A stretch of 64,000 bases of DNA from Lunularia cruciata (Eukaryota > Streptophyta > Marchantiopsida > Lunulariales > Lunulariaceae). The translations under genes and the position numbers were made by a program. Below the pieces are notes generated by a model that worked only from the letters and a program-made list of their open reading frames with translations, made no database searches and was not told the DNA's origin. The stretch lies in NCBI GenBank assembly GCA_948567375.1, contig OX419761.1, positions 44,678,243 through 44,742,242 on the forward strand. The letters are read 5' to 3'. Below, one piece after another: positions 1,971 through 47,088 of the stretch (positions within the stretch are counted from its first letter, which is position 1; the number at the start of each line of letters is the position of its first letter).

Positions 1971-2059
1971 GCAAAGATGAAGTACTTTGGAGATGTTTGG
2001 AGACATACAAAGTCAGAGGAGTCATTGAGTCCATACACTAAACCATTGGAAGACACTAT

Positions 2060-13086: not shown

Positions 13087-13213
13087 CTTTCTAGATCATT
13101 CTTTGAAGTGCTTCAAAGGACATTTGAGAGCTCACTTTTCCATCCTAGGGTAAAATTGAAAGAGTGGGATGAGGATTTTAGCTTCTAGGAATTTGAGGGA
13201 AGTTTCTTGCAGA
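13087..13213. repeat. Left part of a ~200-bp direct repeat interrupted by element A
   Basis: The sequence tttctttctagatcattctt and what follows up to the insertion point is repeated at 23223-23350. When element A and one duplicated CAGA are removed, the first copy continues into 23153-23222, and a second copy follows directly. The second copy has TAGA where the first has the target CAGA, so it serves as an adjacent empty site and confirms A's ends. Confidence 0.8.
13210..13213. repeat. Target-site duplication CAGA, left of element A
   Basis: CAGA lies immediately before TGTCACGCC and again immediately after GCACGACA at 23149-23152. Four-base duplications are made by DDE-type integration. Confidence 0.85.
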
Positions 13214-13660
13214 TGTCACGCCATTTGTAGTTCCGCATCTAGATGCTCGGACACTGGAGTTCCAGTGATGGTAGTTAGAGTTATTCTAGCTGTTTCTCAG
13301 GGACTACTTTTCAACGGTTAGATTTTGTGTTCGGGGTACTGACTTCACGTGGGGCCCACCGTCACTTTGCACCGTTTGCACCGTCGAGTGTGCCGTCAGC
13401 GGGACCGTTAGGGTTTCAGGGCTAGCTCGAGTCCAGGGGGTATAGTTTTGAAGTGAGCTCCAGAGAGCTCACTTCTCTGATGTTGAGCCTTCGAGTTCCT
13501 GGCTATGGTGGACAGAGGCCGGCGAGCGTCACCTGGATTCTCTATGCTTGAGTGGGTGTGGCTTGACTATAATCAGTGCCCAGTTGTTGGCAGTTTATAG
13601 AGTGACAGATCAAGTACTGATCTGAGTTGAGTTGAGTTGAAGTGTTAAGCAATCTGATTA
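13214..13660 (+). repeat. Element A: A1 terminal repeat
   Basis: 447 bp starting TGTCACGCC and ending gcaatctgatta. It is repeated as A2 (22595-23042) but, unlike a normal 5' LTR, is not followed by the 105-bp B module that closes the element's 3' end. It presumably holds the promoter; no TATA box was confidently placed. Confidence 0.9.
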
Positions 13661-13668
13661 CATCAGAG
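13658..13668 (+). promoter_or_regulatory. Candidate primer-binding site at the end of A1
   Basis: ttacatcagag directly at the A1 boundary shares 8 of 11 bases with the initiator-Met site TGGTATCAGAG, including an unbroken ATCAGAG, but lacks TGG. The same sequence is at the matching point of copy B. Adjacent placement supports it; the missing TGG argues against. Confidence 0.35.
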
Positions 13669-14392
13669 AAGTCAAGTCAGGGGGAAATCGGGTGTAGGAA
13701 TGTTGAGTGTTGGTGGTATCTCCAAGCTCGGTGGATCGTGGTAGCTCGATTCAGGTTTTATGTTTCCCTAGTGTGCAGAAGCTCGTGTAGTTGATGCAAA
13801 TTTGGCAGTTAGGCGGACGGTGTGCGGAAGCGCTGGCCAAATTTCGAGCAAAGAAGGAGCAATTTTTGAGCAGTGTTGTGATTTTGAGCTCAGGAGGTGA
13901 AAGCAAGACCAATTTGCTGCGAGTTGGGCTCAGAAAGTGAAATTGAAGGTGGAGTTGGAAAGCTCTTCTCATGAAATTGTGATTTGGAAAAACCCGTTTT
14001 GTCAATTTGGCTCGAGTGGAAAGTTAGCGGGGGATTTGGCGGACACCCATCTTTAGGGTTTATGTCAGATTTTCGTCAGATTTTGGGCCAGAATTGGAGG
14101 AGTTTTGCTGTTTGGCCAGATTTGGAGAAGTTTCGCTAGTTTGGAGGAGTTTCGCAGATTTGGAGAAGTTTTGCCAATTTTGGAGGAGGTTCGAAGTGGC
14201 AACAAGAAAGGCCTCATTTGGCTGAATTTCGGCGTTTCAAGGCTTCGAGGCATAGGGCTGTGGGCTATGAGAGGCTACGAAGGCCTAGAAGGGCCAGAAG
14301 GGCCAGCAAGCCAGCTTGCTGGCGTGAGGTTAGCTAGTTTAGTGTAGATCTTGGTCATTGGTTGGCAAAATCTGCATTTCTTGCTAGATTGT

Positions 14393-14466
14393 GCGCAACA
14401 GGGTTTGACCCCTAGATCTCTTGTTCCTAGACTGGTGCCCTAGCCAACTGGTCCACCCTCACTTGT
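14393..14466 (-). other. tRNA-like relic in the leader
   Basis: The minus strand has an A-box-like TGGACCAGTTGG (14445-14456) and a B-box-like GGGTCAAACCC (14401-14411) at tRNA spacing, with a 7-nt loop region between weak anticodon-stem partners. Pairing of the acceptor and D stems is poor, so this is not a working tRNA gene. It is also present in copy B (40551-40624), so it belongs to the element. It may be a captured tRNA or SINE head. Confidence 0.45.
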
Positions 14467-14596
14467 TGTCATAGTGACTGTGCCACTGTTATCTATACAC
14501 ATGTAGCTTTGGCTAGGAGAGGCAGTTTGATCCCATTCTTGGTGATCTTGGTAGCTTAGGACTTAGATCCGAACTACTCTTATGTCAAATGCCAAA

Positions 14597-14609
14597 TGGT
14601 GGCAGAGTC
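14597..14609 (+). promoter_or_regulatory. Alternative primer-binding-site-like sequence
   Basis: TGGTGGCAGAGTC matches 9 of 12 bases of the initiator-Met site TGGTATCAGAGC and starts with TGG. It is conserved in copy B at 40756. It lies about 0.94 kb downstream of A1, and A2/B2 contain no copy of the sequence between, so a standard LTR boundary here is unlikely. Confidence 0.25.
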
Positions 14610-15016
14610 AATCCCGTGTTGTGTTATGAGATGGAGGGTTTTTGTTTAGATTTCTTGTGATTGGATCCCCTCCATTCTCTGCTTCCTGTTTGTGCACCAC
14701 GTTTGTGTGAGGTGCCTTGACTTTTGAGCGTTGGTGCTCTGGTGTGCTCTCGGTGGTGAGGCTGGAGTGATGACCAGTCAGACTACCTTTGTTTCTCTCC
14801 GGTGAGGCTGGAAGTGATGACCTGCAGACCGTGAGAGTGCGTGTTATGATGGCAGGTTACAGGTTGCCCTTCCCCTAGTGTTGTTATCTCGATAGAGTTA
14901 CATTAGTGGGTGGTGTTTAGTTGGTGTTGGCACGTGGTGGTGTTGGCACTTGGTGGGGTACTTGCGGTTGCGACTTGCGGTTGCAGTTGGTGGTTCGGGT
15001 TTGCTGTTGCAGTTAC

Positions 15017-16123
15017 ATGGTCACGACGGAGTTCTTTGGAGATTCCAGAGGAGTTAGCCCTGCAGTACGCAGTGGGTTTACTCGGAGTGGTGCTCGGTAT
15101 CAGCCTGTATCTCAGGTCCCAATGAGGGAGGAGATTGACTCTGAGTTGGAGTTTGACACAGGAGCTGATTCAGTTGAGAGTGCACTTGGTGTGTCTGCAC
15201 CGTTGTTGTGGGACATGGACGAGATTTATGGGGCCTCCAAAGGCCCTAGGCGTTACTCTGGTACAGTGGGTACCATTGAGTTGGATGACTTCATCCAGGA
15301 GTTCGATAGTTGGTGTGATCTGCAGCAGATGCGGAACCCGACTTTGTTCACACCCTTCATGGCATGGAAGGGGTTGTTTCAGCACTTGGAGGGTCCACCG
15401 ATGGACGACTACCATGAGTTCAGGAGAGCTCATTTGGAGGAGATTGAGTTATGGAGACAGTATTGGTCTCCTCACTATGTCTCTATCACTTCAGGCTCGG
15501 TGGCCAGGAGTAGATCGGCTGTACCTACGAGTTCTAGCTCGAGTAGTGTGGGTGGAGCTAGTGGAGGTGCACTAGCTGGAGATAGTGCTACTACGATTGG
15601 AGGTACCGCTGCAGGAGGTGGTGTGGTACCGGGGTTTAACCCCATGGTGGAGTTCCTATGTTTGAGGCAGAACTACCAGGGAGTGCGGACTGACAAGCTG
15701 AGGAGCTTGCAGGAGTTCCAGCGGAAGGCTGGAGAGAGCCTACGCGAGGCATATACTCGCATGAGGCGGCTGATCAGTTTCACTCAGTGAGTTACTGAGG
15801 CCCAGGCAGTCCAGTTTTGGTATGGGATACTGGACAGGGAGTTGCGACGTAGAGTTCGTGATGCTACGTTGTTGCAGGCTACTTCGCCCACTTTGGCAGT
15901 AGTCTTTGGTTTGGCTGAGCGTATTGAGCTCAACATGGTGGAGGAGAGAGTGGTGACATCTGGATTTGGTAGGGAGACCTCATCCACGGTTGTGACTTCT
16001 TCTGGAGTGCAGCAGAGTGCACCACGCCCAGTTGTTTTTTGAGGACAGGGTGGACAGCCCAGATCCTATGGAGCGAGTGGAGGGCCTAGTGGAGTTAGAC
16101 CCTTACCCTCATTTTTGGGTCAG
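15017..16123 (+). pseudogene. Element A: gag (capsid) region
   Basis: Structural protein region that would form the virus-like particle. The segment GTIELDDFIQEFDSWCDL near 15270-15325 and FQRKAGESLREAYTRMRRLI near 15718-15777 fit the retrotransposon gag fold, with TQxVTEAQAVQFWYGILD continuing after the stop at 15788. A Ser/Gly-rich linker lies near 15525-15625. B has no stop at 15788 (GGA), so gag was open at that point in the common ancestor. TGA 16040 and TAG 16124 separate it from the zinc knuckles in both copies. Confidence 0.7.
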
Positions 16124-16150
16124 TAGCAGCCAGTGAGTGGTGGTGTTGCT

Positions 16151-16285
16151 TGTTGGACTTGTGGTGGACCTCACCATAGGAGAGAGTGTACTCAAGGCAG
16201 CGGACCTGATACCTCTGGTGCATCACAGCCAGCACAGAGGCAGTGTGAGCACTGCCATAGATTTGGTCATACTAGTGACCGCTGT
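16151..16285 (+). CDS. Element A: two zinc knuckles (nucleocapsid)
   Basis: First knuckle CWTCGGPHHRREC (C-x2-C-x3-H-x4-C; the neighbouring His allows x4/x3). Second, canonical CEHCHRFGHTSDRC (C-x2-C-x4-H-x4-C), 16244-16285. An RGG-rich stretch follows (16340-16400), then a short heptad-like IEQLEQRLASM. These bind RNA in retroelement nucleocapsid proteins. They lie inside the 702-codon open stretch 16133-18241 that continues to protease and methyltransferase. Confidence 0.85.
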
Positions 16286-17099
16286 TTTGACCTACACCCG
16301 GAGTTACGGAGTGGTAGGGCTGCTATGGCAGGTAGTAGAGGAGCTCCAGTTCATGGAGGACGAGGTGGTAGAGGTGGTGGTAGAGGATCTACACCTAGTA
16401 GGAGTGCGGTACCTGCCCTTACTTCTGACACAGCTATGGCTACTCGGATTGAGCAGTTGGAGCAGAGATTGGCTAGTATGGCTATTGCTCAGAGGAGATC
16501 AGATTCGGGTGCTGAGGCTTCCACCTCATATGTTGGTGATAGAGATGCTTTGGACTTCATGTGCGGAGCAGCACAGGTGGATGCATCGGCAGCAGTGACT
16601 AGGAGTGCAATACGTGCTCCAGAGCCTAGAGGAGCATCAGTGGAGTTGGACCCACAGAGAGGAGAGGTTGGGAGACAGGTCAGACTTCCCCAGTCTTTCA
16701 TGCTATCTGAGGCATTGCAGACGACATCCATGGTTCCTAGACGTCCCAGTGCAGGTGTGGTAGGTGGTGATGGAGTACATGATGGACTACCTGCTAGTCA
16801 GCCACCTACTCCTACACAGACTGAGTCTAGCATGATGTTGGGGGCGGCTCAGCTGATTATGCGGCATCCTTTATTTTCAGCCAGTGACATGTTTACATTG
16901 GGAGTTGACCCAGCCCCAGTGTTCCGGTTGGCTGCCACATTGTGTGAGAGTAGGGATGGTGCAGTTCCTACTACTAGAGCAGAGGTGGTTGGTAGTGGAG
17001 CTAACTTGGTTGAGGAGCATGGGATCCGTTCAACAACCAGTGGTTTATGGCAGGCAGCAGCGGCTAGACTGGAGGAGTTGCCAGCTAGACCGGCCTTTG

Positions 17100-17500
17100 A
17101 GAGAGCGTGGTTTACACCTGGTGTTGTCCTATTGGATAACCAGAGGGGGATCTTTCGTTTGGTGGGACCTTCAGGGAAGGTCTATACACCACAAAGAGTC
17201 TTGTTAGACTCTGGTGCGCAGCCCCTTATGTTGGGGAAGGCTGCAGTTGTTGGTCTGGAGTTACGGAAGACCGATGTGGAGAGGTGTCCATTTCAGATCC
17301 AGACATCTCTAGGTGGTGGTTTGACACAATACATCACACGTGGGGAGCTTGTTGTCCAGGTTCAGCCTGGTCATCCGACTGATAGCTCAGTGGTGAGAGC
17401 TCAGGCTATTGCGACGATAGCTGAGTCCTATGATGTGCTAGTTGGGGGAGCAGTGTTATACCCTATGGGTTTCAATATTGACTATTGGGAGGAGACAGCC
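17100..17500 (+). CDS. Element A: aspartic protease
   Basis: VLLDSGAQPLMLG with the catalytic DSG (Asp codon 17207-17209), followed by ITRGELVVQVQPG and YDVLVGGAVLYPMG, which corresponds to the family's ILGxxxL segment. The domain would cleave the polyprotein. Copy B has a TAG right after DSGA (43365). Between here and the methyltransferase lie about 135 residues with no recognised domain, including a hydrophobic AALVLAFSGAV and an acidic stretch DECEDEPPE. Confidence 0.8.
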
Positions 17501-17904
17501 TCTTATAGACCTGGTTGGCAGTCTCGTGAGGGACGGGTATGTCGCCTACCAGTACGCTTTAGTAGTGGCAGTCTTGGCTCACTACAGTTCGGGACCATGG
17601 CAGCATTAGTTTTGGCTTTCAGCGGTGCAGTTACTTGGCCTGGTGACTTGTTGGAGGGGAACGCCCATGCAGAGGATACTCCAGTACCAGAGGAGATCAC
17701 TCGGCTATGGAGTACGAGTGGGATTGTTCCATCCACCTTGGATGTTCCATTGTGGAGTTCAGAGGAGGCATTGCAGCAGCATGCAGATCAGTTGGTGCAG
17801 CAGGCTTGGAGTGGAGCCTTCGTACCATCAGGGGATGAGTGTGAGGATGAGCCTCCAGAGGCGATTGCTTTGACACCTCTGGATACCACACTCATTGCTT
17901 GGCA

Positions 17905-18900
17905 GTATCCAGTAGAGGGGATATGCCTATTGGAGTTGTTTGGTGGGATCAGCAGCGGACTAGCTGCGGTGTTACAGGCGGGTATCCGAGTACAGAGGTA
18001 CTTGTATGTAGAGAGAGATGAGACTGCTAGGCGAGTCTCTCTACATCATGTGGCACACTTGGCCTATCGGTATCCGGAGTTATTACCGATGTCAGCAGTC
18101 AGAGGTTACCAGAAGGCCTTACCAGGAGACATTTCCTTACTGGGGGCGCATGACCTAAAGAGACATGGGCCTGTTCACTTGGTGATTTTTGGATGGCCAT
18201 GTCAGGGACATACACGTGCGGGCCGCGGTTTGGGTCTTTAGGATCCTTGTTCTGGTGTGTTTTGGGAGATGTTACGGATATTACGACATCTCCAGGTTCA
18301 TCAGTCTGTTTCTCCAGCTTACCTTTTGGAGAACGTTCCTTTGTTGGGTGATTCTCGCACTAGAGTGGTGGCGAGTACACATCAGGTCCATTCTTGGATG
18401 GGACCTGCTGTATTGTTAGATGCAGCCAGAGTGGGATCACGAGCTCATCGTCTTCGTCTTTGGTGGACGAACCTTTTACCCAGAGAGGTTCTATAGCGTG
18501 CTTATGATGGGATTCAGCGACTGGACCACATTCTTGTTGATGATATCTTGGATGTTGGGCGTCAGTCTCAGACAGTGGTAGTGGCTGATAGGTCACCTAT
18601 GGCAGTGGTGAACCTAGTTGGACAGCCTAGAGCTGCATTTCCCACACTCATGAGTTTCCCAAGCTCTCATGCTTTTTGAGAGGGAGGACCTGGACTTGTT
18701 TGGGACTCACAATTACAGCAGTTGGTGGAGCCCAATGTTGATGAGAGAGAGCAGGCGATGGGTTTTCGCACCGGTATTACCGCTGTTCCAGTAGTGTCAG
18801 AGGCATCCAGGCGTCAGGTGTTAGGTTAGGCTATGGACCTGAACTGTTTGACCTGGATTGTGAGCCTTGGTTTGGCAGAGCAACGTAGGATGCGTTTGAT
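17905..18900 (+). CDS. Element A: C5-cytosine DNA methyltransferase domain
   Basis: Transfers a methyl group from S-adenosylmethionine to cytosine in DNA. Motifs in canonical order: I, CLLELFGGISSGLAAVL (about 17923-17973); II-like YVERDETARRV; IV, GWPCQGHTRAG with catalytic Cys codon 18200-18202; VI, LLENVPLLG with ENV at 18329-18337; VIII, SRAHRLRLWWTN (about 18438-18473); IX-like EPNVDEREQAMGF (about 18730-18768); X-like RRQVLG, stop, AMDLNCLTWIVS (18809-18868). ENV followed by SRAHRxRxWW is most like the DNMT3 type. The unpermuted order differs from plant DRM enzymes. It sits between protease and RT in the same frame. Stops at 18239, 18494, 18677 and 18827 break this copy; B reads CAG at the first two. 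Confidence 0.88.
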
Positions 18901-19201
18901 AGGCATCACCACTCGGACACTTGTGAGCCCTGTGCCGATCGAGACGATTCAGGCACATGCTGGGGGCGATGGACCGAGTGGACATGGTATTCTTGGGACA
19001 CATCCAGTAGCTACTAGGGAGAGTGGTCTACTTGGAGTCCATCCAGGTGAGCGTGGGCTACTTGGATTACCCCCTTGGTCCACATGGGATGCAGCCAGAG
19101 GACGTATGGAGCTTGCAGCTAGAGTGGAGGGAGTTTTTCACACAGAGGTTGGGACCTCTAGTGGTCGGGAGCATGACACCATTGCTCCCAAGGGCCCAGT
19201 G

Positions 19202-19399
19202 TAGCAGCCAGTCAGTACGTCTTCCACTCCTACTACAGTTACAGAGGATACTTGGGAGCCAGATCTTGGACCCAAGCTTACTGGAGAGGAAAGACGGAGG
19301 GTTTGGAGGTTCTTGAGGAGTCACACGAGTTGTTTTGCCTTCAGTATGAAGAATTTGGGTGCTCTGAAGGGACTTGGTATACGGATTGAGCTGACTAAC
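19202..19399 (+). other. Linker between methyltransferase and RT
   Basis: A TAG at 19202-19204 followed by CAG CCA opens this stretch. The frame then continues through a Thr/Ser-rich linker and ERRRVWRFLRSHTSCFAF, the usual segment before the RT fingers, into the RT. Copy B has lost this part. Confidence 0.6.
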
Positions 19400-20290
19400 G
19401 ACACACCTGTTTTCCGACGTCCTTATCGATATAGTGAGATGGAGAGGACATTGATTCAGAGCCGGAGTCGTGACCTTTTTGAGGCTGGTTTGGTGGAGAT
19501 TTCACATGGAGAGTATGCATCAGCGATAGGGATGCCAGCCAAGAAGGATATGCATGGCAACTATACAGATAGGCGGATGTGTGGAGATTACCGTCCTATC
19601 AACCGACAGACCAGGGCTGATCGGTATGCCATGCCTACACCGAAGGAGATTTTTGATGCGATTGGGCATGCAAAGGTCTTCAGTACTTTGGATCTTCGAG
19701 CGGGATATCATCAGTTGCCGATCAGGGAGGAAGATAAGTCCAAGACAGCATTTTGGGCTATTGATCCTCACGGCAAGGATGTGTTATATCAGTGGAGATT
19801 CTTACCATTTGGGTTGAAGAATGCTCCTGCTGAGTTCCAGAGGGTCATGGATAGGATCCTAGCTGGACTGGATTTTGCTCGGTGCTATATTGATGACATT
19901 TTGGTATATAGCACTACTGTGGAGGAGCATGAGAGACAATTGTTGGAGGTGTTTGAGAGGTTGAGATCTCATGGACTCAAATTACATCCTGGGAAGTGTA
20001 GGTTCTTCCATGAGCAGGTTGAGTATTTGGGTCACACTATCTACCCCGGAGGACTTGGTGTTCAGCAGACCAAGGTGGAGGCTATTGCACATATTCCTCG
20101 GCCTACGGATGTGAGCAGAGTGCGAGCATTCCTTGGGTTGGCAAACTTCTATCGCCGCTATGTTAGAGGATTTAGTGCCATTGCCAAGGCCTTGACAAAG
20201 CTGACCAAGCTAACACAGGAGTGGTGTTGGGGAGATGAGCAGGAGAGAGCTTTTGTAGAGCTCAAGGAGAGGTTGACATCTGCTCCTATT
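19400..20290 (+). CDS. Element A: reverse transcriptase
   Basis: Intact RT within the 627-codon open stretch 19313-21196. Motifs in order: RRPYRYSEMER, a GMPAKKD segment where relatives have VxVKKKDG, MCGDYRPINRQT, FSTLDLRAGYHQLPI, FLPFGLKNAPAEFQRVMD, the catalytic YIDDILVY (YIDD codons 19886-19897), and VEYLGHTI then RAFLGLANFYRRYV. All expected polymerase aspartates are present. It would synthesise element cDNA. Copy B lacks the whole domain through an in-frame deletion. Confidence 0.93.
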
Positions 20291-20700
20291 TTGAGGAGAC
20301 CGATTAGGGGACGACCATTTCAGGTTCACATTGATTGGAGTATGTTGGGGCTTGGAGCGGTGCTCACCCAACATGATGATGAGGAGAAGGAGTTTGTGGT
20401 GGCCTATGCTAGTCGCTCCAACAATTCAGCGGAGGCGAAGTATAGTTCATATGAGGGAGAGTGCTTGGCAGCAGTTTGGGCAGTAGCACATTTCCAATGT
20501 TACCTATTTGGTAACCCCTTCACTCTCATCACTGATCATCAGCCGTTGAAGTGGTTGATGGAGTCCGACAAGCTTTCAGGGAAGCTTGCACGATGGGCTC
20601 TGATTTTACAGGAGTATGATTTCACGGTTGTTCACAGACCTGGAATGGTGAACCGTGATGCAGATGGGTTGAGTAGAAACCCATGTCCCAACCAGCAGGA
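20291..20700 (+). CDS. Element A: RNase H
   Basis: FQVHIDWSMLGLGAVLTQ (first Asp), YASRSNNSAEAKYSSYEGEC (Glu) and LITDHQPLKWL (Asp), then LARWALILQEYDF and HRPGMVNRDADGLSR with the late Asp. All catalytic acidic residues are visible. It is contiguous with the RT in the same open frame. It would degrade the RNA template. Confidence 0.9.
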
Positions 20701-20929
20701 TCAGACCAGAGCACGTTGGCATGGTGAGACAGATGAGGAGATGGTGCCAGGTTGGCATGCATCGGCCTTTCTGTGTATATTTGCAGAGACTTTGGTGGTA
20801 TCTCTCTCAGCACATACAGGAGGAGTTATTGAGGTCACAGATCCAGAGAGTGAAGATATTGGTACAGTTCAGCGAGACATTCATGATGATGTCTTAGTGA
20901 TGGACTATCTTCGCACTGGTGTTGTGGGT

Positions 20930-22170
20930 GGCACAGTTGGGGCCAAGGAGAGAGACCGTGTTCTTCAGCGAGCCAGACGGTTCAGATTGGAGGGTAGACA
21001 TCTTTTGCGTGTATGGGAGGATGGTAGAGTGCGAGTAGTACCACTTCCATCACAGAGACCACAGTTGGTCCGTCATGCTCATGAGGAGCTAGGACATTTT
21101 GGAGTAAAGCGTACATATAGCTTGCTCCAGAGTCATTATTGGTGGCGCGGTATGCAGACCGAGGTACAGCAGTTTGTTGCCAGATGTGTGGTTTGAGACC
21201 GAGTTAGAGCATCATTCAATGCTCCTACGCCACAGTTACACCCATTACCTATCATGGGATTGGGTTACCATTGGAGTTTGGACTTTGCCGGACCTTTACC
21301 ACTGACTGTGAGACATCATCGGTATGTTTTGGTGATGGTGGAGCACTTCTCCAAGTGGATTGAGTTGGTGGCACTTCTTGACAAGTCTAGTGAAGGGACA
21401 GCTTACTCGTTCCTGGATCGAGTTCTTAGTCATTTTGGTGCACCAGCTGAGGTTTTGACTGATCAGAGTACAGAGTTCTTGGGAGAGTTTCAGGTCTTGT
21501 GTGACAAGGCTTTGATTGATCATCGTACTACATCCCGAGATCACCCTGAGGCAGATGGCTTAGCAGAGAGAGTGGTTCAGATGGTGAAGAGAGGATTGCG
21601 AAAGTATGGTTTGCAGAGAGGCCACTTGGGAGATTGGGATCTCCAGTTACCTTGGTTGGCCATGGGCTATCGGTTCAGCCGGCAAGCCTCCTTAGCATCC
21701 TTCTCTCCATACTTTCTACTCTATGGACGAGATCCAGATTTACCTGCAGCCATTTGTCGAGATGCTACTGTAGTTTTGGACTTGGATGACCCTGATGTAT
21801 GGATGAGCGCATGTTCTCAGCGGGCAGAGATCTTTCGGAGAGTGATGCCAATGGCCTTCGAGAACTTGGCGATTGCTCAGCATAGAGATACTTTACGCTA
21901 TGCTACCATTCGAGGAGGAGGTTATAGACCCTCGATCCGTCGATTTCATCCAGGTGACTATGTATATCTACAGCAGACAGCACCAACGACACTTGATGTT
22001 TCTACAGGCCGCACTATCTTGAGAGTGCGTGAGGTTTTGCCATCTGGAGTCCTTGTGTTAGAAGGACGTGATGGTGTTGTTTGGAAGGATCATGTGCGCA
22101 ATTGTGTGCCATGCCACCTCCCAAACATTGATGGTACTATGGACCCAAGCTTGGCACTTGTACGTGCAGG
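20930..22170 (+). CDS. Element A: integrase (zinc region, DDE core, C-terminal module)
   Basis: The zinc region has HAHEELGHFG and ends RCVV followed by TGA (21194-21196), where B reads TGT; the TGA replaces the last zinc-binding Cys. The core has SLDFAGP (Asp codon 21281), LTDQSTEF (Asp codon 21461) and ADGLAERVVQ (Glu codon 21566). By my count 34 residues separate Asp and Glu, one fewer than in element E. The C-terminal part has HPGDYVYLQQ and TILRVREVLPSGVLVLEG, a GPY-like module. It would join cDNA to host DNA with the observed 4-bp stagger. Confidence 0.88.
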
Positions 22171-22174
22171 CTTG

Positions 22175-22315
22175 AGGTGTATGTTATGTGGCTCTTTTGG
22201 TGGAGCTGCTACTATGTTAGTGTGTGATAGCTGTTCGAGAGGATGGCATATGGCATGTATGACTCCTCCCCTCACGGTGGTTCCTCAGGGACAATGGTTA
22301 TGTCCTAGATGTACT
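22175..22315 (+). CDS. Element A: C-terminal PHD finger
   Basis: The last 47 residues form a C4HC3 zinc finger: CMLC, CDSC, HMAC and CPRC, with spacing C-x2-C-x11-C-x2-C-x4-H-x2-C-x14-C-x2-C and the hallmark Trp two residues before the last Cys pair (QWLCPRC). PHD fingers usually bind the N-terminal tail of histone H3. It sits where chromoviruses carry a chromodomain and is followed by the stop. All eight ligands are kept in copy B (46161-46301). A reader role in target choice is inferred. Confidence 0.9.
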
Positions 22316-22338
22316 TGACCTATAGCTAGTTCATTCTT

Positions 22339-22429
22339 TATATGGTATAGATTGCAGACAGGCGACTAACGATGGGGCTCCATAGCACCCGGCCTCCTGA
22401 TCTTTGCCCATTAGAGGGTATACCATATA
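22339..22429 (+). promoter_or_regulatory. Inverted repeat before the polypurine tract (possible RNA hairpin)
   Basis: tatatggtata (22339-22349) and its perfect complement tataccatata (22419-22429) flank 69 bases. Copy B keeps it with one mismatch (46325-46335 and 46405-46415). It could be a packaging or 3'-end RNA structure; no function is shown. Confidence 0.35.
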
Positions 22430-22473
22430 CTTAGAGTAGATGGCTATCTGGAGTTAGAGGGACCTAACCGCCA

Positions 22474-22485
22474 GCTAGGGGGGCG
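22474..22485 (+). promoter_or_regulatory. Polypurine tract of element A
   Basis: gctaggggggcg just before B1 (ATTGTGG). Copy B has gctagggggca at 46460-46470. It implies that plus-strand DNA begins at B1, so the repeat made by reverse transcription would be B1-A2. Confidence 0.6.
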
Positions 22486-22592
22486 ATTGTGGCACTTTAG
22501 AGTCTATGTATGACTTATGTGTGAGTTGTGCTTTTATAGTGTATGATGTTGACAGCGATGTATGTTGTGTAGCGATGTATATACGCACGACA
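22486..22592 (+). repeat. Element A: B1 repeat module
   Basis: 107 bp from ATTGTGGCAC to GCACGACA, nearly identical (three differences) to B2. It is joined through GC to A2. Confidence 0.9.
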
Positions 22593-22599
22593 GCTGTCA
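22588..22599. promoter_or_regulatory. Palindromic B1/A2 junction GACAGCTGTC
   Basis: A 10-bp perfect palindrome made of the end of B (GACA), GC, and the start of A (TGTC), at about 22589-22598. These two sequences are exactly the outer ends of the inserted element, so the junction looks like joined element ends. It is also present in copy B at about 46574-46583. Confidence 0.7.
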
Positions 22600-23042
22600 C
22601 GCCATTTGTAGTTCCGCATCTAGATGCTCGGACACTAGAGTTCTAGTGATGGTAGTTAGAGTTATTCTAGCTGTTTCTCAGGGACTACTTTCCGACGGTT
22701 AGATTTCGTGTTAGGGGTACTGACTTCACGGTGGGGCCCACCGTCACTTTGCACCGTTTGCACCGTCGAGTGTGCCGTCAGCGGGACCGTTAGGGTTTCA
22801 GGGCTAGCTCGAGTCCAGGGGGTATAGTTTCGAAGTGAGCTCCAGAGAGCTCACTTCTCTGATGTTGAGCCTTCGAGTTCCTGGCTATGGTGGATAGAGG
22901 CCGGCGAGCGTCACCTGGATTCTCTATGCTTGAGTGGGTGTGGCTTGACTGTAATCAGTGCCCAGTTGTTGGCAGTTTATAGAGTGACAGATCAAGTACT
23001 GATCTGAGTTGAGTTGAGTTGAAGTGTTAAGCAATCTGATTA
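22595..23042 (+). repeat. Element A: A2 terminal repeat
   Basis: A copy of A1 (about ten differences in 447 bp, mostly transitions). It is followed by B2 instead of the leader. Confidence 0.9.
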
Positions 23043-23148
23043 TTGTGGTACTTTAGAGTCTATGTATGACTTATATGTGAGTTGTGCTTTTATAGTGTAT
23101 GATGTTGACAGCGATGTATGTTGTGTAGCGATGTATATATGCACGACA
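23043..23148 (+). repeat. Element A: B2 repeat module
   Basis: The second copy of the 105-bp B module, from TTGTGGTAC to GCACGACA. It forms the right end of the insertion and is followed by the CAGA duplication (23149-23152). Confidence 0.9.
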
Positions 23149-23152
23149 CAGA

Positions 23153-24669
23153 GCTTCAAGGTCTATTACCTCCTATAGCCAGAACCATTACATCAAGGGG
23201 AGGAGAAGAATATAGCAAAATTTGTTCTTTCTAGATCAATCTTTGAAGTGCTATAGAGGACATTTGGGAGCTCAATTTTCCATCCTAGGGGAAAATCGGA
23301 AGAGTGAGGTGAGGAGTTTAGCTTCTATGACTTTAAAGGAAGTATCCTATAGAGTGTCAAGGTCTGATACTTGATATATCTCAAGCAATTGACATCAAGA
23401 GTGGAAATGGCAATATGATATAATTCTGATTATTGTGAGGAAGTGTAAGAGGGAGGAAATGAAAATTGTGTGCAGGAACAAGGAGAAAAGATGATGTTTC
23501 ACACTATGACCACCCACTAATCTCAACTTAGAGAAGCTTACACCCATAGTGCTTAAGAGATGAAACTTGATTAATTAAGAGAGCACTTGACCAAAATTGG
23601 TTATGAAGTCTAGATGGATTTACCATGAGGGATTTGATCTAAACCCATGGTTCAAGAGTTAATCATTTTGCACATAATAGAGAGTATGGAGCCAACCATT
23701 AGAGGGAATCCCTGAAATTGGGAGTTGGCAATCACCTTGGGTGCCTACCAATTGACATATATGGGAGAGGGATTGATTGGCACCAAGGGGCATTGCCTTG
23801 GAAAAGGCTACCAAATAGGTTTTTGGAGAGACAACCTATGACTCTAAGCATAGGTTTAATCTTAACTTGATCACTAACTCCAAAATCAGGAGAGTCTTTG
23901 AGTTCTTGCTTTGTATCTTATATCATGAGCATCCCATCCAAATCAATAAAGTATGGGCAATGATAGTATTGATTGCTTGAGTGGGAAACAAGATAGTGCA
24001 CTAGGGACTTCTCCCACATAAACATATCCATAAGTTTGCACAGAGCATAAGTCAAATAAATAGGTACGCTTGGTCAAGCACATTCTTATTCCTTGTCTAT
24101 CACAAGCATAACATGCTCATCTAAGGAGAGAAAAAAGAGTGAGAGTGAAAATTAAAAGCCTAGTAGGAATATACAAGAAGAAGTCCAAATTCTAGTCAAG
24201 TAGATCCTAGTGAGGAAGATGGCAAGGGAGTACATCAAGAGCTACAAGACCATGAAGGGAGGCCACTAGAGACCAATCATGCCTTGATTCCTTTTGGGAG
24301 GCTTTAAAGATTCCTACCTCTGGATTGAACACATGTAGGACTAGTCCTCTATTTCTTGAGTGAAGCTCCAAAGAGTAGCAGAAGGGGTTGACTAGAGTGA
24401 GGTCTCAAAGCTTACACCTAACTACTCTACTTTAACAAATTGCCTCTCTCTTTGAGGAAGATGTTGGAAGAAATTGCACTTGGATTTGAGAGAGCAACAA
24501 GAATACAAATTTGGTTATTATATGGAGCAAAATTCATTCATCAATCTGGTCAAGAAAAAAATGCATAAAAATTACACAAATTTCATGTGGTTTGGCTAAT
24601 ATCTACCTATATCCATTATTGCATAGGATTTTTTTATTCAAGAATTATCAAAGTCACTACTAACCATCA
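23153..24669. other. Flank of element A; second ~200-bp repeat copy, then nothing recognisable
   Basis: 23153-23222 completes the interrupted repeat and 23223-23420 is its second copy. Beyond that I see AT-rich sequence without a convincing gene or terminal repeat. Confidence 0.5.
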
Positions 24670-31914: not shown

Positions 31915-31919
31915 AATTG

Positions 31920-32656: not shown

Positions 32657-32657
32657 A

Positions 32658-32669
32658 TGGTATCAGAGC
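32658..32669 (+). promoter_or_regulatory. Element E: primer-binding site
   Basis: TGGTATCAGAGC, a perfect initiator-Met tRNA site one base after the LTR. Confidence 0.92.
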
Positions 32670-32796
32670 GAGTGTTTTAGTCCAAGAGAGTGGATCACCC
32701 CTCTTGGAATAGCACGAACTACTAAAACTGAGTAATTTGAGGTGGAGAACATAGAGTAATTGCTAGACTTAGGAAGGACTTTAGAGAGCGGATGGG

Positions 32797-37319: not shown

Positions 37320-37324
37320 CCAAT

Positions 37325-39421: not shown

Positions 39422-39841
39422 TGTCACGCCATTTGTAGTTCCGCATCTAGCTGCTCGGACACGGGAGTTCCAATGATAGTAGTTAGAGTTATTCTAGTAG
39501 TTTCTCAGGGACTACTTTCTGACAGTCTGATTTGGTGTTCGGGGTATTGACTTCACGGTGGGGCCCACCGTCACTTTGCACCGTTCACACCGTCGAGTGT
39601 GCCGTCAGCGGGACCGTTAGGGTTCCAGTGCTAGCTCGAGTCCAGGGGGGTATAGTTTTGAAGTGAGCCTTCGAGTTCCTGGCTATGGTGGACAGAGGCC
39701 GGCGAACGTCACTTGGATTCTCTATGCTTGAGTGGGTGTGGCTTGACTGTAATCAGTGCCCAGTTGTTGGCAGTTTATAGAGTGACAGATCAAGTACTAA
39801 TCTGAGTTGAGTTGAGTTGAGAGTGTTAAGCAATCTGATTA
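39422..39841 (+). repeat. Element B: A1 terminal repeat
   Basis: Corresponds to A's 13214-13660 with a short deletion in the middle (the 'gctccagagagctcac' part is missing). It is followed directly by the leader sequence catcagagaag. Confidence 0.9.
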
Positions 39842-41159
39842 CATCAGAGAAGTGAAGTCAGGGGGAAATCGGGTGCACGAACGTTGAGTGTTGGTGGTAT
39901 CTCCAAGCTTGGTGGATCGTGGTAGCTCAATTCAAGTTCTGTGTTTCCTTAGTGTGCAGAAGCTCGTTCAAGTGATTCAGATTTGGCAATTAGGCAAACG
40001 GTGTGCGGAAGCACTGGCCAAATTTCGAGCAAAGAAGGAGCAATTTTCAAGCAGTGTTGTGATTTTGAGCTCAAGAGGTGAAGGCAGGACCAATTTGCTG
40101 CGAGTTGGGTTTAGAAAGTGAAATTAAAGGTGGAGTTGGGAAGGTCTTCTCATGAAATTGTGATTTGGAAAAACCCGTTTTGTCAATTTGGCTCGAGTGG
40201 AAAGTTAGCGGGGGATTTGGTGGATAGCCATCTTTAGGGTTTACGTCAAATTTAGGGCCAGATTTGGAGGAGTTTTTGCTGTTTGGCTAGATTTGGAGGA
40301 GTTTTGCTAGTTTGGAGGACTTTCGTAGATTTGGAGAAGTTTCACCAATTTTGGAGGAGGTTTCAAAGTGGCAACAAGAAAGGCCTCATTTGGCTGAATT
40401 TCGGCATTTCAAGGCTTCAGGGCTATGAGAGGCTAAGAAGGCCTAGAAGGGCCAGAAGGGCCAGCAAGCTAGCTTGCTGGCGTGAGGCTAGCTAGTTTAG
40501 AGTAGATCTTGGTCATTGGTTGGCAAAATCTGCCTTTCTTGCTAGATTGTGCGCTACAGGGTTTGACCCCTAGATCTCTTGTTCCTAGACTGGTGCCCTA
40601 GCCAACTGGTCCACCCTCACTTGTTGTCTTAGTGATTGCGCCACTATTATCTATACATATGTAGCTTTGGCTAGGAGAGGCAGTTTGATCCCATTCTTGG
40701 TGATCTTGGTAGCTTATGACTTAGATCCAAACTGCTCTTTATGTCAAATGCCAAATGGTGGCAGAGTCAGTCCCGTGTTGTGTTATGAGATAGAGTGTCT
40801 TTGTTTAGATTTCTTGTGATTGGATCCCCTCCATTCTCTGCTTCCTATTTGTGCACCATGTTTGTGTGAGGTGCTTGACTTTTGAGCGTTGGTGCTCTGG
40901 TGTGCTCTTGGTGGTGAGGCTGGAGTGATGACCAGTCAGACTACCTTTGTTTCTCTCCGATGAGGCAGGAAGTGATGACCTGCAGACCGTGAGAGTGTGT
41001 GTTATGATGGTAGGTTATAGGTTGCCTTTCCCCTAGTGTAGTTATCTCGGTTAGAGTTACATTAGTGGGTGGTGTCTAGTTGGTGTTGGCACTTGGTGGG
41101 GCACTTGCGGTTGCGACTTGCGGTTGCAGTTGGTGGTTTGGGTCTGTTGTTGTAGTTAC
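39842..41159 (+). other. Element B: 5' leader with tRNA-like relic
   Basis: Closely matches A's leader. It includes the tRNA-like segment (40551-40624, minus strand; B-box 40559-40569, A-box 40603-40614) and the TGGTGGCAGAGTC site at 40756. Confidence 0.65.
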
Positions 41160-44100
41160 TTGGTCACGACGGAGTTCTTTGGAGATTCTAGAGGAGTTAG
41201 CCCTGCAGTACCCAGTGGGTTTACTCGGAGTGGTGCTCGGTATCAACCTGTATCTCAGGTCCCAGTGAGGAAGGAGATTGACTCTGAGTTGGAGTTCGAC
41301 ACAGGAGCTGATTCAGTTGAGAGTGCACTTGGTGTGTCCGCACTGTTGTTGTGGGACATGGACGAGATTTATGGGGCCTCCAAAGGCCCTAGGCGTTACT
41401 CTGGTACAATGGGTACCATTGAGTTGGATGACTTCATCCAGGAGTTCGATAGTTGGTATGATCTGCAGCAGATGCGGAACTCAACTTTGTTCACACCCTT
41501 CATGGCATGGAAGGGGTTGTTTCAGCATCTAGAGGGTCTGCCGATGGATGACTACCATGAGTTCAAGAGAGCTCATTTGGAGGAGATTGAGTTATGGAGA
41601 CAGTATTGGTCTCCACACTATGTCTCCATCACTTCAAGCTCGGTGGCTAGGAGTAGATCGGCTATACCCATGAGTTCTAGCTCGAGTAGTGTTGGTGGAG
41701 CTAGTGGAGGTGCACTAGCTGGAGATAGTGCTACTACGAGTGGAGGTACCACTGCAGGAGGTGGTGTGGTACCGGGGTTTAACCCCATGGTGGAGTTCTT
41801 CCTGTGTTTGAGGCAGAACTACCAGGGAGTGCGGACTGACAAGCTGAGGAGCTTGCACGAGTTCCAGCGGAAGGCTGGAGAGAGCCTACGTGAGGCATAT
41901 ACTCGCATGAGGCGGCTGATCAGTTTCACTCAGGGAGTTACTGAGGCCCACGCAGTCCAATTTTGGTATGGGATACTGGACAGGGAGTTGGGACGTAGAG
42001 TTTGTGATGCTACGTTGTTGCAAGCTACTTTGCCCACTTTGGTAGTACTCTTTGGTTTGGCTGAGCGTATTGAGCTCAACATGGTAGAGGAGAGAGTGGT
42101 GACATCTGGATTTGGTAGAGAGACCTCATCCACGGCTGTGACTTCTTCTAGGGTGCAGCAGAGTGCACCACGCCCAGTTGGTTTTTGAGGACAGGGTGGA
42201 CAACCCAGATCCTATGGAGCAAGTGGAGGGCCTAGTGGAGTTAGACCCTTACCCTCATTTTTGGGTCAGTAGCAGCCAGTGAGTGGTGGTGTTGCTTGTT
42301 GGACTTGTGGTGGACCTCACCATAGGAGAAAGTGTACTCAGGGCAACAGACCTGATACCTCTGGTGCATCACAGCCAGCACAGAGGCAGTGTGAGCACTG
42401 CCACAGATTTGGTCACACTAGTGACCGGTGTTTTGACCTACACCCGGAGTTACGGAGTGGTAGGGCTGCTATGGCAGGTAGTAGAGGAGCTCCAATTCAT
42501 GGAGGACAAGGTGGTAGAGGTGGTGGTAGAGGATCTACACCTAGTAGGGGTGCAGTACCTGCCCTTACTCCTGACACAGCTATGGCTACTCGGATTGAGC
42601 AGTTGGAGCAGAGATTGGCTAGTATGGCTATTGCTCAGAGGAGATCAGATTCGGATGCTGAGGCTTCCACCTCATATGTTGGTGATAGAGATGCTTTGGA
42701 CTTCATGTGCGGAGCAACACAAGTAGATGCATCTGCAGCAGTGACTAGGAATGCAGTATGTGCTCCAGAGCCTAGAGGAGCATTAGTGGAGTTGGACCCA
42801 TAGAGAGGAGAGGTTGGGAGACAGGTCAAACTTCCCCAATCTTTCACGCTATCTGAGGCATTACAGACAACATCCATGGTTCCTAGATGTCCTAGTGCAG
42901 GTGTGGTAGGTGGTGATGGAGTACCTGATGGAGTACATGCTAGTCAGCCACCTGCTACTACACAGACTGAGTCTAGCATGATGTTGGGGGCGGCTCAGCT
43001 GATTATGCGGCATCCTTTGTTTTCAGCCAGTGACATGTTTACATTGGGAGTTGACCCAGCCCCAGTATTCCGGTTGGCTGCCACGTTGTGTGAGAGTAGG
43101 GATGGTACAGTTCCTACTACTAGAGCAGAGGTGGTTGGTAGTGGAGCTGACTTGGTTGAGGAGCATGGGATCCGTTCAACGACCAGTGGTTTATGGCAGG
43201 CAGCAGTGGCTAGACTGGAGGAGTTGCCAGCTAGACCGGCCTTTGAGAGAGCGCGGTTTACACTTGGTGTTGTCCTATTGGATAACCAGAGGGGGATTTT
43301 TTGTTTGGTGGGACCTTCAGGGAAGGTCTATACACCACAAAGAGTCTTGTTAGACTCTGGTGCGTAGCCCTTTATGTTGGGGAAGGCTGCAGTTGTTGGT
43401 CTGGAGTTACGGAAGAGCAATGTAGAGAGGTGTCCATTTTAGATCCAAACATCTCTAGGTGGTGGTTCGACATAGTACATCACACGTGGAGAGCTTGTTG
43501 TCCAAGTTCAGCCTGGTCATCCGACTGATAGCTCGGTGGTGAGAGCTCAGGCTATTGTGACAATAGCTGAGTCATATGATGTGCTAGTTGGGGGAGCAGT
43601 GTTATACCCTATGGGTTTCAACATTGACTATTGGGAGGAGACAGCCTCTTATAGACCTGGTTGGCAGTCTGGTGAGGGACGGGTATGTCACCTACCAGTA
43701 TGCTTCAGTAGTGGCAGTCTTGGCTCACTACAGTCCGAGACCATGGCAGCATCAGTTTTAGCTTTCAGCGGTGCAGTTACTTGGCCTAGTGACTTGTTGG
43801 AGGGGAACACCCATGCAGAGGATACTCCAGTACCAGAGGAGATTACTCGACTATGGAGTACGAGTGGGATTGTTCCATCCACCTTGGATGTTCCATTGTG
43901 GAGTTCAGAGGAGGTATTGCAGCAACATGCAGATCAGTTGGTGCAGCAGGCTTGGAGTGGAGCCTTCATACCATCAGGGGATGAGTGTGAGGATGAGCCT
44001 CTAGAGGTGATTGCTTTGACACCTCTGGATACCACACTCATTGCTTGGCAATATCCAGTAGAGGGGATATGCCTATTGGAGTTGTTTGGTGGGATCAGCA

Positions 44101-44756
44101 CCGGACTAGCTGCGGTGTTACAAGCAGGTATCCAAGTACAAAGGTACTTGTATGTAGAGAGAGATGAGACTGCTAGGCGAGTCTCTCTACATCATGTGGC
44201 ACACTTGGCTTATCGGTATTCGGAGTTATTACCGATGTCAGCAGTCAGAGGTTACCAGAAGGCCTTGCTAGGAGACATTTCCTTACTGGGGGCGCATGAC
44301 CTAGAGAGACATGGGCCTATTCACTTGGTGATTTCTGGATGGCCATGTCAGGGACATACACGTGCGGGCCACGGTTTGGGTCTTCAGGATCCTTGTTCTG
44401 GTGTGTTTTGGGAGATGTTACAGATACTATGACATCTCCAGGTTCATCAGTCTGTTTCTCCAGCTTACCTTTTGGAGAACGTTCCATTGATGGGTGATTC
44501 TCGTACTAGAGTGGTGGCGAGTACACATCAGGTCCATTCATGGATGGGACCTGCTGTATTGTTAGATGCAGCCAGAGTGGGATCACGGGCTCATTGTCTT
44601 CGTCTTTGGTGGACGAACCTCTTACCCAGAGAGGTTCTACAGCGTAGTTATGATGGGATTCAGCAACTAGACCACATTCTTGTTGATGATATCTTGGATG
44701 TTGGACGTCAGTCTCAAACAGTGGTAGTGGCTGATAGGTCACCTATGGCAGTGGTT
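41160..44756 (+). pseudogene. Element B: gag-protease-methyltransferase (truncated) frame
   Basis: One frame without frameshift. Gag is open to TGA 42186. Then come TAG 42270 and knuckles CWTCGGPHHRRKC and CEHCHRFGHTSDRC from about 42297. Protease DSGA is followed by TAG at 43365. Methyltransferase motifs I (LELFGGISTGLAAVL), IV (GWPCQGHTRAG), VI (ENV) and VIII (SRAHCLRLWWTN) are present; motifs IX and X are deleted. Further stops: 42801, 43440, 43473, 44430. All these positions are CAG, CAA or CGA in A except the two shared ones. The downstream frame continues without interruption across the deletion. Confidence 0.88.
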
Positions 44757-46304
44757 CTGTGTATATTTGCAGAGGCTTTGGTGGTATCTTTCTCAGTGCA
44801 TACAGGAGGAGTTATTGCGGTCACAGATCCAAAGAGTGAAGATATCGGTACAGTTCAGTGAGACATTCATGATGATGTCTTAGTGATGGACTATCTTTGC
44901 ACTAGTCTTGTGGGTGGCACAGTTGGGGCCAAGGAGAGAGACCGTGTTCTTCAGCGAGCAAGACGGTTCAGATTGGACGGTAGACATATTTTGCATATAT
45001 GGGAGGATGGTAGAGTGCGAGTAGTACCACTTCCATCTCAGAGACCACAATTGGTCTGTCATGCTCATGAGGAGCTAGGACATTTTGGAGTAAAGCATAC
45101 ATATAGCTTACTTCAGAGTCATTATTGGTGGCGCGGTATGCAGACCAAGGTACAGCAGTTCGTTGCCAGATGTGTGGTTTGTGACCGAGTTAGAGCATCA
45201 ATTAATGCTCCTACACCACAGTTACACCCATTACCTATCATGGTATTGGGTTACCGTTGGAGTTTGGACTTTGCCGGACCTTTATCGCTGACTATGAGAC
45301 ATCATCGGTATGTTTTGGTGATGGTGGAGCACTTCTCCAAGTGGATTGAGTTGGTGGCACTTCCTGACAAGTCTAGTGAAGGGACAGCTTACTTATTCCT
45401 GGATCAAGTTCTTAGTCATTTTGGTGCACCAGCTGAGGTTTTGACTGATCAGGGTACAGAGTTCTTGGGGGAGTTTCAGGTATTGTGTGACAAGGCTTTG
45501 ATTGATCATCGTACTACATCCCGAGATCACCCTGAGGCAGATGGCTTAGCAGAGAGAGTGGTTCAGACGGTGAAGAGAGGATTGCAAAAGTATGGTTTGT
45601 AGAGAGGCCACTTGGGAGATTGGGATCTCCAGTTACCTTGGTTGGCCATGGGGTATCGGTTCAGCCGGCAAGCCTCCTTAGCATCCTTCTCTCCATACTT
45701 TCTACTCTATGGACAAGATCCAGATTTACCTACAGCCATTCGTCAAGATGCTACTATAGTTTTGGACTTGGATGACCTCAATGTATGGATGAGCGCATGT
45801 TCTCAGTGGGCAGAGATCTTTCGGAGAGTGATGCCGATGGCCTTTGAGAACTTGGTGATTGCTCAGCATAGAGATACTTTATGCTATGCTACCATTTGAG
45901 GAGGAGGTTATAGACCCTCAATCCATTGATTTCATCCATGCGACTATGTATATCAACAGCAGATAGCACCGATGACACTAGATGTTTCTACAGGCCGTAC
46001 TATCTTGAGAGTGCGTGAGGTTTTGCCATTTAGAGTCCTTGTGTTAGAAGGACGTGATGGTGTTGTTTGGAAGGATCATGTGCGCAATTGTGCACCATGC
46101 CACCTCCCAAACATTGATGGTACTATGGACCCAAGCTTGGCACTTGTACGTGCAGGCTTGAGGTGTATGTTATGTGGCTCTTCTGGTGGAGCTGCTACTA
46201 TATTAGTGTGTGATAGCTGTTCGAGAGGATGGCATATGGCATGTATGACTCCTCCCCTCATGGTGGTTCCTCAAGGACAGTGGTTATGTCCTAGATGTAC
46301 TTGA
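44757..46304 (+). pseudogene. Element B: integrase and PHD finger
   Basis: After the deletion junction the frame carries HAHEELGHFG and the intact zinc Cys pair (CVVCDR, where A has a stop), then SLDFAGP, LTDQGTEF and ADGLAERVVQ. Stops: TGA 44859, TAG 45600, TGA 45897, TGA 45927, each CGA or CAG in A. The PHD finger (46161-46301) keeps all eight ligands and the Trp. Differences in the finger are few (for example Ser for Phe after CMLCGS). Confidence 0.88.
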
Positions 46305-46470
46305 CCTATAGCTAGTTCATTCTTTATATGGTATAGATTGCAGACAGGCGACTAACGATGGGGCTCCATAGCACCCGGCCTCCTGATCTTTGCCCATTAG
46401 AGGGTATACTATATACTTAGAGTAGATGGCTATCTGGAGTTAGAGGGACCTAACCGCCAGCTAGGGGGCA

Positions 46471-46577
46471 ATTGTGGCACTTTAGAGTCTATGTATGACT
46501 TATGTGTGAGTTGTGCTTTTATAGTGTATGATGTTGACAACGATGTATGTTGTGTAGCGATGTATATACGCACGACA
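46471..46577 (+). repeat. Element B: B1 repeat module
   Basis: ATTGTGGCAC to GCACGACA, preceded by the polypurine tract ctaggggg and joined via GC to A2 with the same GACAGCTGTC palindrome as in copy A. Confidence 0.9.
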
Positions 46578-46579
46578 GC

Positions 46580-46992
46580 TGTCACGCCATTTGTAGTTCC
46601 GCATCTAGCTGCTCGGACACCGGAGTTCCAGTGATAGTAGTTAGAGTTATTCTAGTAGTTTCTCAAGGACTACTTTCCGACAGTCTGATTTGGTGTTTTG
46701 GGTACTGACTTCATGGTGGGGCCCACCGTCACTTTGCACCGTTCACACCGTCGAGTGTGCCATCAATGGGACCGTTAGGGTTCCAGTGCTAGCTCGAGTG
46801 CACTTCTCTGATGTTGAGCCTTCGAGTTCTTGGCTATGGTGGACAGAGGCCGGCGAGCGTCACCTGGATTCTCTATGCTTGAGTGGGTGTGGCTTGACTG
46901 TAATCAGTGCCCAGTTGTTGGCAGTTTATAGAGTGACAGATCAAGTACTGATCTAAGTTGAGTTGAGTTGAGAGTGTTAAGCAATCTGATTA
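46580..46992 (+). repeat. Element B: A2 terminal repeat
   Basis: A second copy of A1 with a deletion of about 30 bp after gctagctcgag. Confidence 0.9.
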
Positions 46993-47084
46993 TTGTGGCA
47001 CTTTAGAGTCTATGTATGACTTATGTGTGAGTTGTGCTTTTATAGTGTATGATGTTGACAGTGATGTATGTTGTACGCACGACA
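46993..47084 (+). repeat. Element B: B2 repeat module
   Basis: A copy of B1 with a short deletion (tgtagcgatgtata missing). It ends GCACGACA and is followed by AGGC. Confidence 0.88.
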
Positions 47085-47088
47085 AGGC

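Follow-up and report, generated by a model that had tools for sequence, protein, structure and literature searches.

A predicted DNMT3-class cytosine methyltransferase and a PHD finger in Ty3/gypsy-type retrotransposons of bryophytes and related algae

Retrotransposons that carry a DNA methyltransferase have been described by de Mendoza et al. (2018; PMC5890265), who report DNMT3 enzymes in gypsy elements with DIRS-like repeats in the charophyte Klebsormidium nitens and demonstrate CG methylation by retrotransposon DNMTs. A 2025 paper citing this work places such elements 'in streptophytes and dinoflagellates'. Why a transposon keeps an enzyme of its own silencing system is a question that has stood since 2018. 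Here, we analyze a 64,000-nucleotide stretch of the genome of the bryophyte Lunularia cruciata (contig OX419761.1, positions 44,678,243 to 44,742,242, forward strand), referred to in its entirety as the window, which holds two copies of a Ty3/gypsy-type element with a DNMT3-class domain in its coding region. Copy 1 is a decayed member of a Ty3/gypsy-type family that occurs in bryophytes and related algae and in which a predicted DNMT3-class de novo cytosine methyltransferase has probably persisted for a long time. A DNMT3 borne by a retrotransposon is known; what appears to be new is the wider host range, the PHD finger that accompanies the enzyme, and a boundary between open reading frames that can be tested.

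The more complete copy and its methyltransferase domain are located as follows.

13214..23148, + strand: copy 1 of the Ty3/gypsy-type element, with termini TGTC...GACA and CAGA direct repeats at 13210-13213 and 23149-23152
17921..18892, + strand: DNMT3-class C5-cytosine methyltransferase domain, between the protease and the reverse transcriptase (RT) in one frame, with the catalytic Cys codon at 18200 and four in-frame stops

Motifs I (17930-17959), IV (18191-18205), VI (18323-18337), VIII (18434-18457), IX (18740-18766), and X (18809-18844) follow one another unpermuted in the frame of 14921, which is also that of the protease DSG and the RT YIDD, and this order rules out a DRM-like permutation. 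With stops read as X, the domain matches Pfam PF00145 with 29.8 bits (cut-off 22; E = 5.4e-7); this match and the 219 homologues described below rule out chance motifs. Among solved structures, the domain is nearer to DNMT3 than to DRM, DNMT2, or bacterial enzymes: profile comparison of the sequence ranks DNMT3A/B first, and so does structural comparison, in which the model predicted for an intact relative could be superposed on DNMT3A/B (19-27% identity in the alignments displayed). DNMT1 and CMT chains were found neither among the sequence matches at E ≤ 10 nor among the 50 structural matches listed, and the pieces scanned gave no match for ADD or PWWP. Stops at 18239, 18494, 18677, and 18827 lie inside the domain, so copy 1 cannot make the whole enzyme.

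A preliminary description of this locus had quoted the same six motifs, with the catalytic Cys at 18200, and had read them as a complete, DNMT3-like, non-DRM methyltransferase within a Ty3/gypsy retrotransposon of a plant-type genome, comparable to those that de Mendoza et al. reported from charophyte algae. The first frame of 17905-18900, the interval given there, is not the coding frame, and the domain itself spans 17921-18892. The motifs are present in canonical order in the frame of the protease and RT, with the Cys codon exactly where it was placed, and the profile match, the superposed fold, and the order of protease, RT, RNase H, and DDE integrase agree with the class and the element type that had been proposed; the plant-type genome and the charophyte likeness are likewise supported. 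The word 'complete' holds for the motif set and fails for the reading frame, with the four stops of copy 1 and the part of the domain lost from copy 2. Not noted there were the PHD finger, the unusual order of the terminal repeats, the in-frame stop that separates DNMT from RT, and copy 2 itself.

Proteins of the same kind occur in a range of bryophytes and in an alga. The first protein search returned 219 proteins at E ≤ 1e-3 (best 2e-155, with 74% identity), with identities of 39-75% among the 120 listed; two further searches, with scoring restricted to the top 8000 candidates in each, returned 106 and 70 proteins, and the three sets overlap. By their source names, the relatives include the liverworts Marchantia polymorpha, Marchantia paleacea, Riccia sorocarpa, and Calypogeia fissa, the mosses Sphagnum troendelagicum, S. 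tenellum, S. jensenii, and S. fallax, and the alga Closterium sp. NIES-54; many more are metagenome proteins, and none of the matches listed bears the label Klebsormidium. Some homologues come from contigs that exceed 20 million bases and carry the names Marchantia, Sphagnum, and Calypogeia. One relative (P0122), assigned by its source to a bacterial metagenome-assembled genome (Candidatus Obscuribacterales), is probably algal or plant contamination. The preliminary description knew of no such element in a land plant; within the open-access literature consulted, no report of DNMT-carrying elements in land plants or of the PHD finger of this element was found, though public databases already contain proteins of this family from Marchantia, Sphagnum, Calypogeia, and Riccia, and many other members of the family carry the domain. 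Its occurrence in Marchantia, Sphagnum, Calypogeia, Riccia, and Closterium suggests that the domain was retained over a long time and not acquired in a single recent event.

In the larger relatives, the DNMT adjoins gag, protease, RT, or integrase, and proteins of at least 560 amino acids show three layouts: gag, zinc knuckles, protease, and DNMT, ending before RT; DNMT continuing into RT (P0217, P0222, P0235, and P0240); and RT, RNase H, and DNMT (P0179, P0221, P0228, P0232, and P0233), with P0221 and P0232 extending to the integrase and PHD finger. In the annotation of Marchantia polymorpha, P0189 (a cluster of 18 member sequences) reads without interruption through its gag, zinc knuckle, protease, and DNMT regions. 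All three DNMT blocks are present in 109 of the 242 collected proteins, and tolerant patterns recovered the Cys of motif IV in 96, motif VI in 102, and motif VIII in 83 of these 109 domains, where misses cover divergent spellings, damaged copies, and gene models. In some members (P0221 and P0222), motif IV reads WECQ and not WPCQ.

In a quick tree of the DNMT domain, copy 1 falls in a nine-row set with Sphagnum, Marchantia, and Calypogeia (Shimodaira-Hasegawa-like approximate likelihood ratio test, SH-aLRT, 100); the outgroup was seven viral enzymes, with one DNMT3A fragment included, and branches are long. The third-layout proteins P0221, P0228, and P0232 group with the DNMT-integrase proteins P0224, P0226, P0229, and P0231 in an 11-row clade (SH-aLRT 97; layout known for 7 of the 11 rows). 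In RT and DNMT trees built from the same carriers, copy 1, P0225 from Sphagnum, and P0193 and P0202 from Marchantia form one clade in both (100/99 and 100/100). Deeper forks are mostly without resolution, so single and several captures are not told apart. In viral contigs, the P0002 query and the RT query found no relatives, and profile A1 found 16 loci with cytosine methyltransferases, seven of which served as the outgroup.

The remaining coding regions of copy 1 complete a Ty3/gypsy polyprotein with an additional C-terminal module.

14921..15787, + strand: gag-like region, with a weak Pfam Retrotrans_gag match under the cut-off (E 0.19) and 65% identity to the N-terminus of Marchantia P0189
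16151..16285, + strand: two zinc knuckles (CWTCGG..., CEHCHR...), from sequence and alignment with relatives; the window piece has no Pfam match
16973..17600, + strand: aspartic protease region with the active-site DSG at 17201-17221; the window piece has no Pfam match
19202..19204, + strand: stop in UAG-CAR-YYA context between DNMT and RT, reading UAG-CAG-CCA, after which the same frame goes on into RT
19205..21193, + strand: RT, RNase H, and the integrase H2C2 zinc domain (Pfam RVT_1 5.7e-32, RT_RNaseH 2.3e-35, Integrase_H2C2 5.3e-16)
21197..22171, + strand: DDE integrase core and C-terminal part (Pfam rve 2.2e-11; D at 21275-21292, D at 21455-21478, E at 21551-21571)
22172..22315, + strand: PHD finger (C4HC3), 3' of the integrase (Pfam PF00628 1.2e-10)

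A Pfam aspartyl protease is present at the protease position in the relatives P0130, P0131, and P0222, and the YIDD of the RT lies at 19886-19897 in the frame of 14921, so that the domains run from protease through RT and RNase H to DDE integrase as in Ty3/gypsy elements. In the seven pieces scanned, Pfam found no tyrosine recombinase or phage-integrase domain, the rve and H2C2 domains being present instead, and no chromodomain at E ≤ 1 at the integrase C-terminus, a place taken by the PHD finger. The finger recurs in 8 of 14 long integrase-matching proteins, the other six ending within the integrase, and its eight zinc ligands are invariant in a nine-row alignment (rows picked for having a PHD). 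Its closest solved structures by sequence are the PHD fingers of CHD4, KMT2D, KMT2C, PHF12, KDM5B, KAT6A, and PHF21A, several of which read unmodified H3K4; that the finger of the element does the same is a guess. A structure model of integrase and PHD had a middling confidence score (pLDDT 67.7), and nothing is claimed from it.

The terminal repeats are split into two parts, A and B, as identified by direct-repeat search, alignment, and an end check.

13214..13660, + strand: repeat A1
22487..22592, + strand: repeat B1, just 3' of the purine-rich tract AGGGGGG that it adjoins
22595..23042, + strand: repeat A2
23043..23148, + strand: repeat B2
39422..47084, + strand: copy 2, of the same family and the same repeat order, with AGGC flanks at 39418-39421 and 47085-47088

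A1 and A2 are 97.6% identical across 452 columns, and the order A-coding-B-A-B, which is of DIRS type, was seen in two of two copies. Conventional long terminal repeats, two whole direct units with one at each end, are excluded in both copies, the 5' end being without B. When the flanks of copy 1 were joined without the element, they aligned ungapped at the joint to a downstream sister unit, with 78% identity over the 60 columns to the left and 60% over the 40 columns to the right, and thus the left end is well fixed and the right end less firmly. The flank is itself duplicated (13085-13218 and 23225-23359, 84%), the sister unit being the empty site. Scans for tRNA and Rfam families were empty.

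Copy 2 is without the 2160 bases equivalent to 18609-20768 (the end of the DNMT and most of the RT) and its B2 is internally altered; over 7639 aligned bases, the two copies are 95.1% alike. The ratio of nonsynonymous to synonymous substitutions (dN/dS) between them, in which stop-bearing codons were skipped and values are raised by decay after insertion, was 0.31 for the N-terminal half of the DNMT (227 codons), 0.22 for gag, 0.45 for the zinc knuckle and protease region, 0.55 for the RNase H end with H2C2, 0.53 for the integrase, and 0.40 for the PHD finger (48 codons). The coding frame of copy 1 has ten stops (15788, 16040, 16124, 18239, 18494, 18677, 18827, 19202, 21194, and 22316), the last of which is the end of pol. 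Two stops between gag and the zinc knuckles occur in both copies (16040 and 16124 in copy 1; 42186 and 42270 in copy 2) and may be ancestral, leaky, or the result of parallel decay. Plain decay is equally likely at 16124, because P0189 runs through the equivalent place without a stop.

The stop at 19202 is probably a natural boundary. It lies 125 residues past the last DNMT block, and of 40 proteins with a protease and a DNMT and without an RT match, 29 end 76-200 residues past that block, 10 sooner, and 1 later; some ends among the 29 are perhaps those of gene models or contigs, and three (P0192, P0194, and P0197) are marked partial at the source. The UAG-CAR-YYA context is that of the leaky stop known from tobacco mosaic virus, and 19202 is a candidate for such a stop. 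This context surrounds 2 of the 170 TAG triplets in copy 1 (16124 and 19202) and 1 of the 166 in copy 2 (42270); the two other sites in the window lie outside both copies.

Differences of the C-to-T type between the copies affect 97 of 782 CG, 115 of 1426 CHG, and 90 of 5246 CHH sites, with sites taken from both copies. Six other repeat pairs in the window, some mutually overlapping and most older than the element pair, also have CG and CHG above CHH, with CG-to-CHH ratios of 2.3 to 6.2 compared to 7 in the element. This suggests that the copies are themselves methylated at CG and CHG, like other repeats of the window. An imprint of the enzyme of the element is not separable in this decay, as the six pairs show the same kind of excess. 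The observed/expected ratio of CpG is 0.21 outside the copies and 0.48 and 0.40 within them, the low value outside being consistent with heavy methylation of old repeats.

Taken together, we consider it fairly probable that this is a decayed gypsy element whose family has long carried a DNMT3-class enzyme, dosed by a leaky UAG, marking its own cDNA, integrating from ends at the junction of B and A, and targeted by its PHD finger. Leaky termination after the DNMT would yield the enzyme together with Gag and protease, in excess over RT and integrase, and would bring it into the particle. There, the DNMT could methylate the new double-stranded complementary DNA (cDNA), most likely at CG, such that on arrival in the nucleus it would resemble methylated resident DNA; the self-methylation or hiding from silencing that the preliminary description raised is what we infer here. 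The ends of the integrating molecule would lie at the B/A junction, which is where they would fall if a circle holding two units in tandem (B-A-B-A) were opened at that point. By reasoning from a unit B-A, in which B1 follows the purine tract and A1 precedes the coding region, a cut circle of two such units gives exactly A-coding-B-A-B. At the target, the PHD finger would read the histone H3 tail, in the role of the chromodomain of chromoviruses. A more encompassing proposal, that an old gypsy lineage of bryophytes and algae combines all of these parts, with the DNMT marking the new copy, the PHD finger picking the chromatin, DDE integration from a circle cut at B/A, and a leaky UAG dosing the enzyme, is put forward only tentatively.

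Several observations weigh against this account. Both copies are dead, and as their CG and CHG sites have decayed like those of other repeats, possession of a DNMT did not protect them from methylation by the host. At 19202, the leaky-stop motif is known from one copy, the four second-layout proteins pass from DNMT into RT stop-free, the Marchantia models P0191, P0193, and P0196 join DNMT to RT (perhaps via modelled introns), and P0189 is stop-free at the equivalent of 16124. The dN/dS of the DNMT is not below that of gag, and all three catalytic-motif patterns are met in only 74 of the 109 domains. Every protein search began from the DNMT and so covers the members of the lineage that carry one, and support for setting the RTs of these carriers apart from three other elements of the window is weak (89/73).

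The enzyme may instead act in trans on the host genome, for example on other copies or on host genes, tuning copy number or silencing rather than marking cDNA. De novo DNMTs by nature do act in trans, host-wide effects and slowed retrotransposition are discussed by de Mendoza et al. (PMC5890265), and the copies have decayed at CG and CHG with a CG-to-CHH ratio that exceeds all six other pairs. The host machinery can explain this excess, however, because the other pairs show one of the same kind. Most of those pairs are also older than that of the element, and the methylome of K. nitens is land-plant-like despite such elements (PMC5890265); we regard action in trans as somewhat unlikely. Less likely again is a protein that binds RNA or DNA, or methylates RNA, and for which DNA methylation is not the task. 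The DNMT of the SymbioLINE retrotransposon did not methylate DNA in yeast (PMC5890265), and the WECQ spelling of P0221 and P0222 points in the same direction, but DNMT2-type RNA enzymes are a much poorer sequence fit than DNMT3, and motifs IV, VI, and VIII are kept at the frequencies given above.

That the DNMT is a passenger, a host DNMT3 captured by accident in one element and decaying unused, would agree with a domain broken in both copies of the window. Such a passenger would hardly persist among homologues so divergent that nonetheless keep the domain, the larger ones beside element genes, and the dN/dS of 0.31 also speaks against it, making this explanation very improbable. Contamination or a chimeric assembly, for which the bacterial filing of P0122 might be cited, has next to no likelihood, because the sequence around the two copies differs, a separate 4-base duplication flanks each of them, and homologues lie within the long contigs named Marchantia, Sphagnum, and Calypogeia.

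The window contains other repeats in addition to the two copies. Fragments of other gypsy-type elements lie at 695-3050, 35250-39187, 48229-50189, and 55338-55889, with stretches 25-41% identical to the RT of copy 1; in some of their open reading frames, Pfam scans identified RT, RNase H, and integrase domains but neither a PHD finger nor a DNMT. A repeat with internal units of ~156 bases is found at 31917-32930, 47349-48094, and 62983-63999 (~92-93% identical). An inverted repeat at 26977-27082 and 27363-27468, with 106-base arms that are 99% complementary and 280 bases apart, is a recent hairpin or small inverted-repeat element.

Should the old-lineage proposal be true, the association of DNMT and element predates land plants and is not a local accident of one alga. 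Provided that this description of the family holds, the model plant Marchantia polymorpha, from which the open protein P0189 derives, offers a system in which to test it. The PHD finger adds a hypothesis of target choice, and the order of the repeats raises the question of how DIRS-like ends are handled by a DDE integrase. As a warning to annotators, some Marchantia and Sphagnum records filed as 'DNA (cytosine-5-)-methyltransferase' (e.g., P0190 and P0136) are retrotransposon proteins.

The closest described system is KnitGypsy-Dnmt3 of K. nitens (PMC5890265), which shares with the Lunularia element the gypsy domains, an unpermuted DNMT3-class domain within the coding region, and a DIRS-like repeat order combined with those domains. 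Both show purifying selection on the DNMT, with Ka/Ks < 0.2 in theirs and 0.31 here from two copies. In contrast, the host here is a bryophyte, the DNMT closes the frame before an in-frame stop, and a PHD finger follows the integrase, the word PHD being absent from the main text of PMC5890265; the likeness noted here is one of layout. SymbioDIRS-Dnmt3 of Symbiodinium (PMC5890265) likewise has a DNMT3 in a retrotransposon polyprotein and A-coding-B-A-B repeats, but employs a tyrosine recombinase; the Lunularia element encodes a DDE integrase and is flanked by duplications of 4 bases. The catalytic domains of DNMT3A and DNMT3B have their motif order in common with the domain of the element. Chromoviruses, the gypsy elements in which a chromodomain follows the integrase, resemble the Lunularia element in the gypsy order of protease, RT, RNase H, and integrase followed by a module of histone-reading type; the element differs from them in having a PHD finger in place of the chromodomain, a DNMT, and split repeats.
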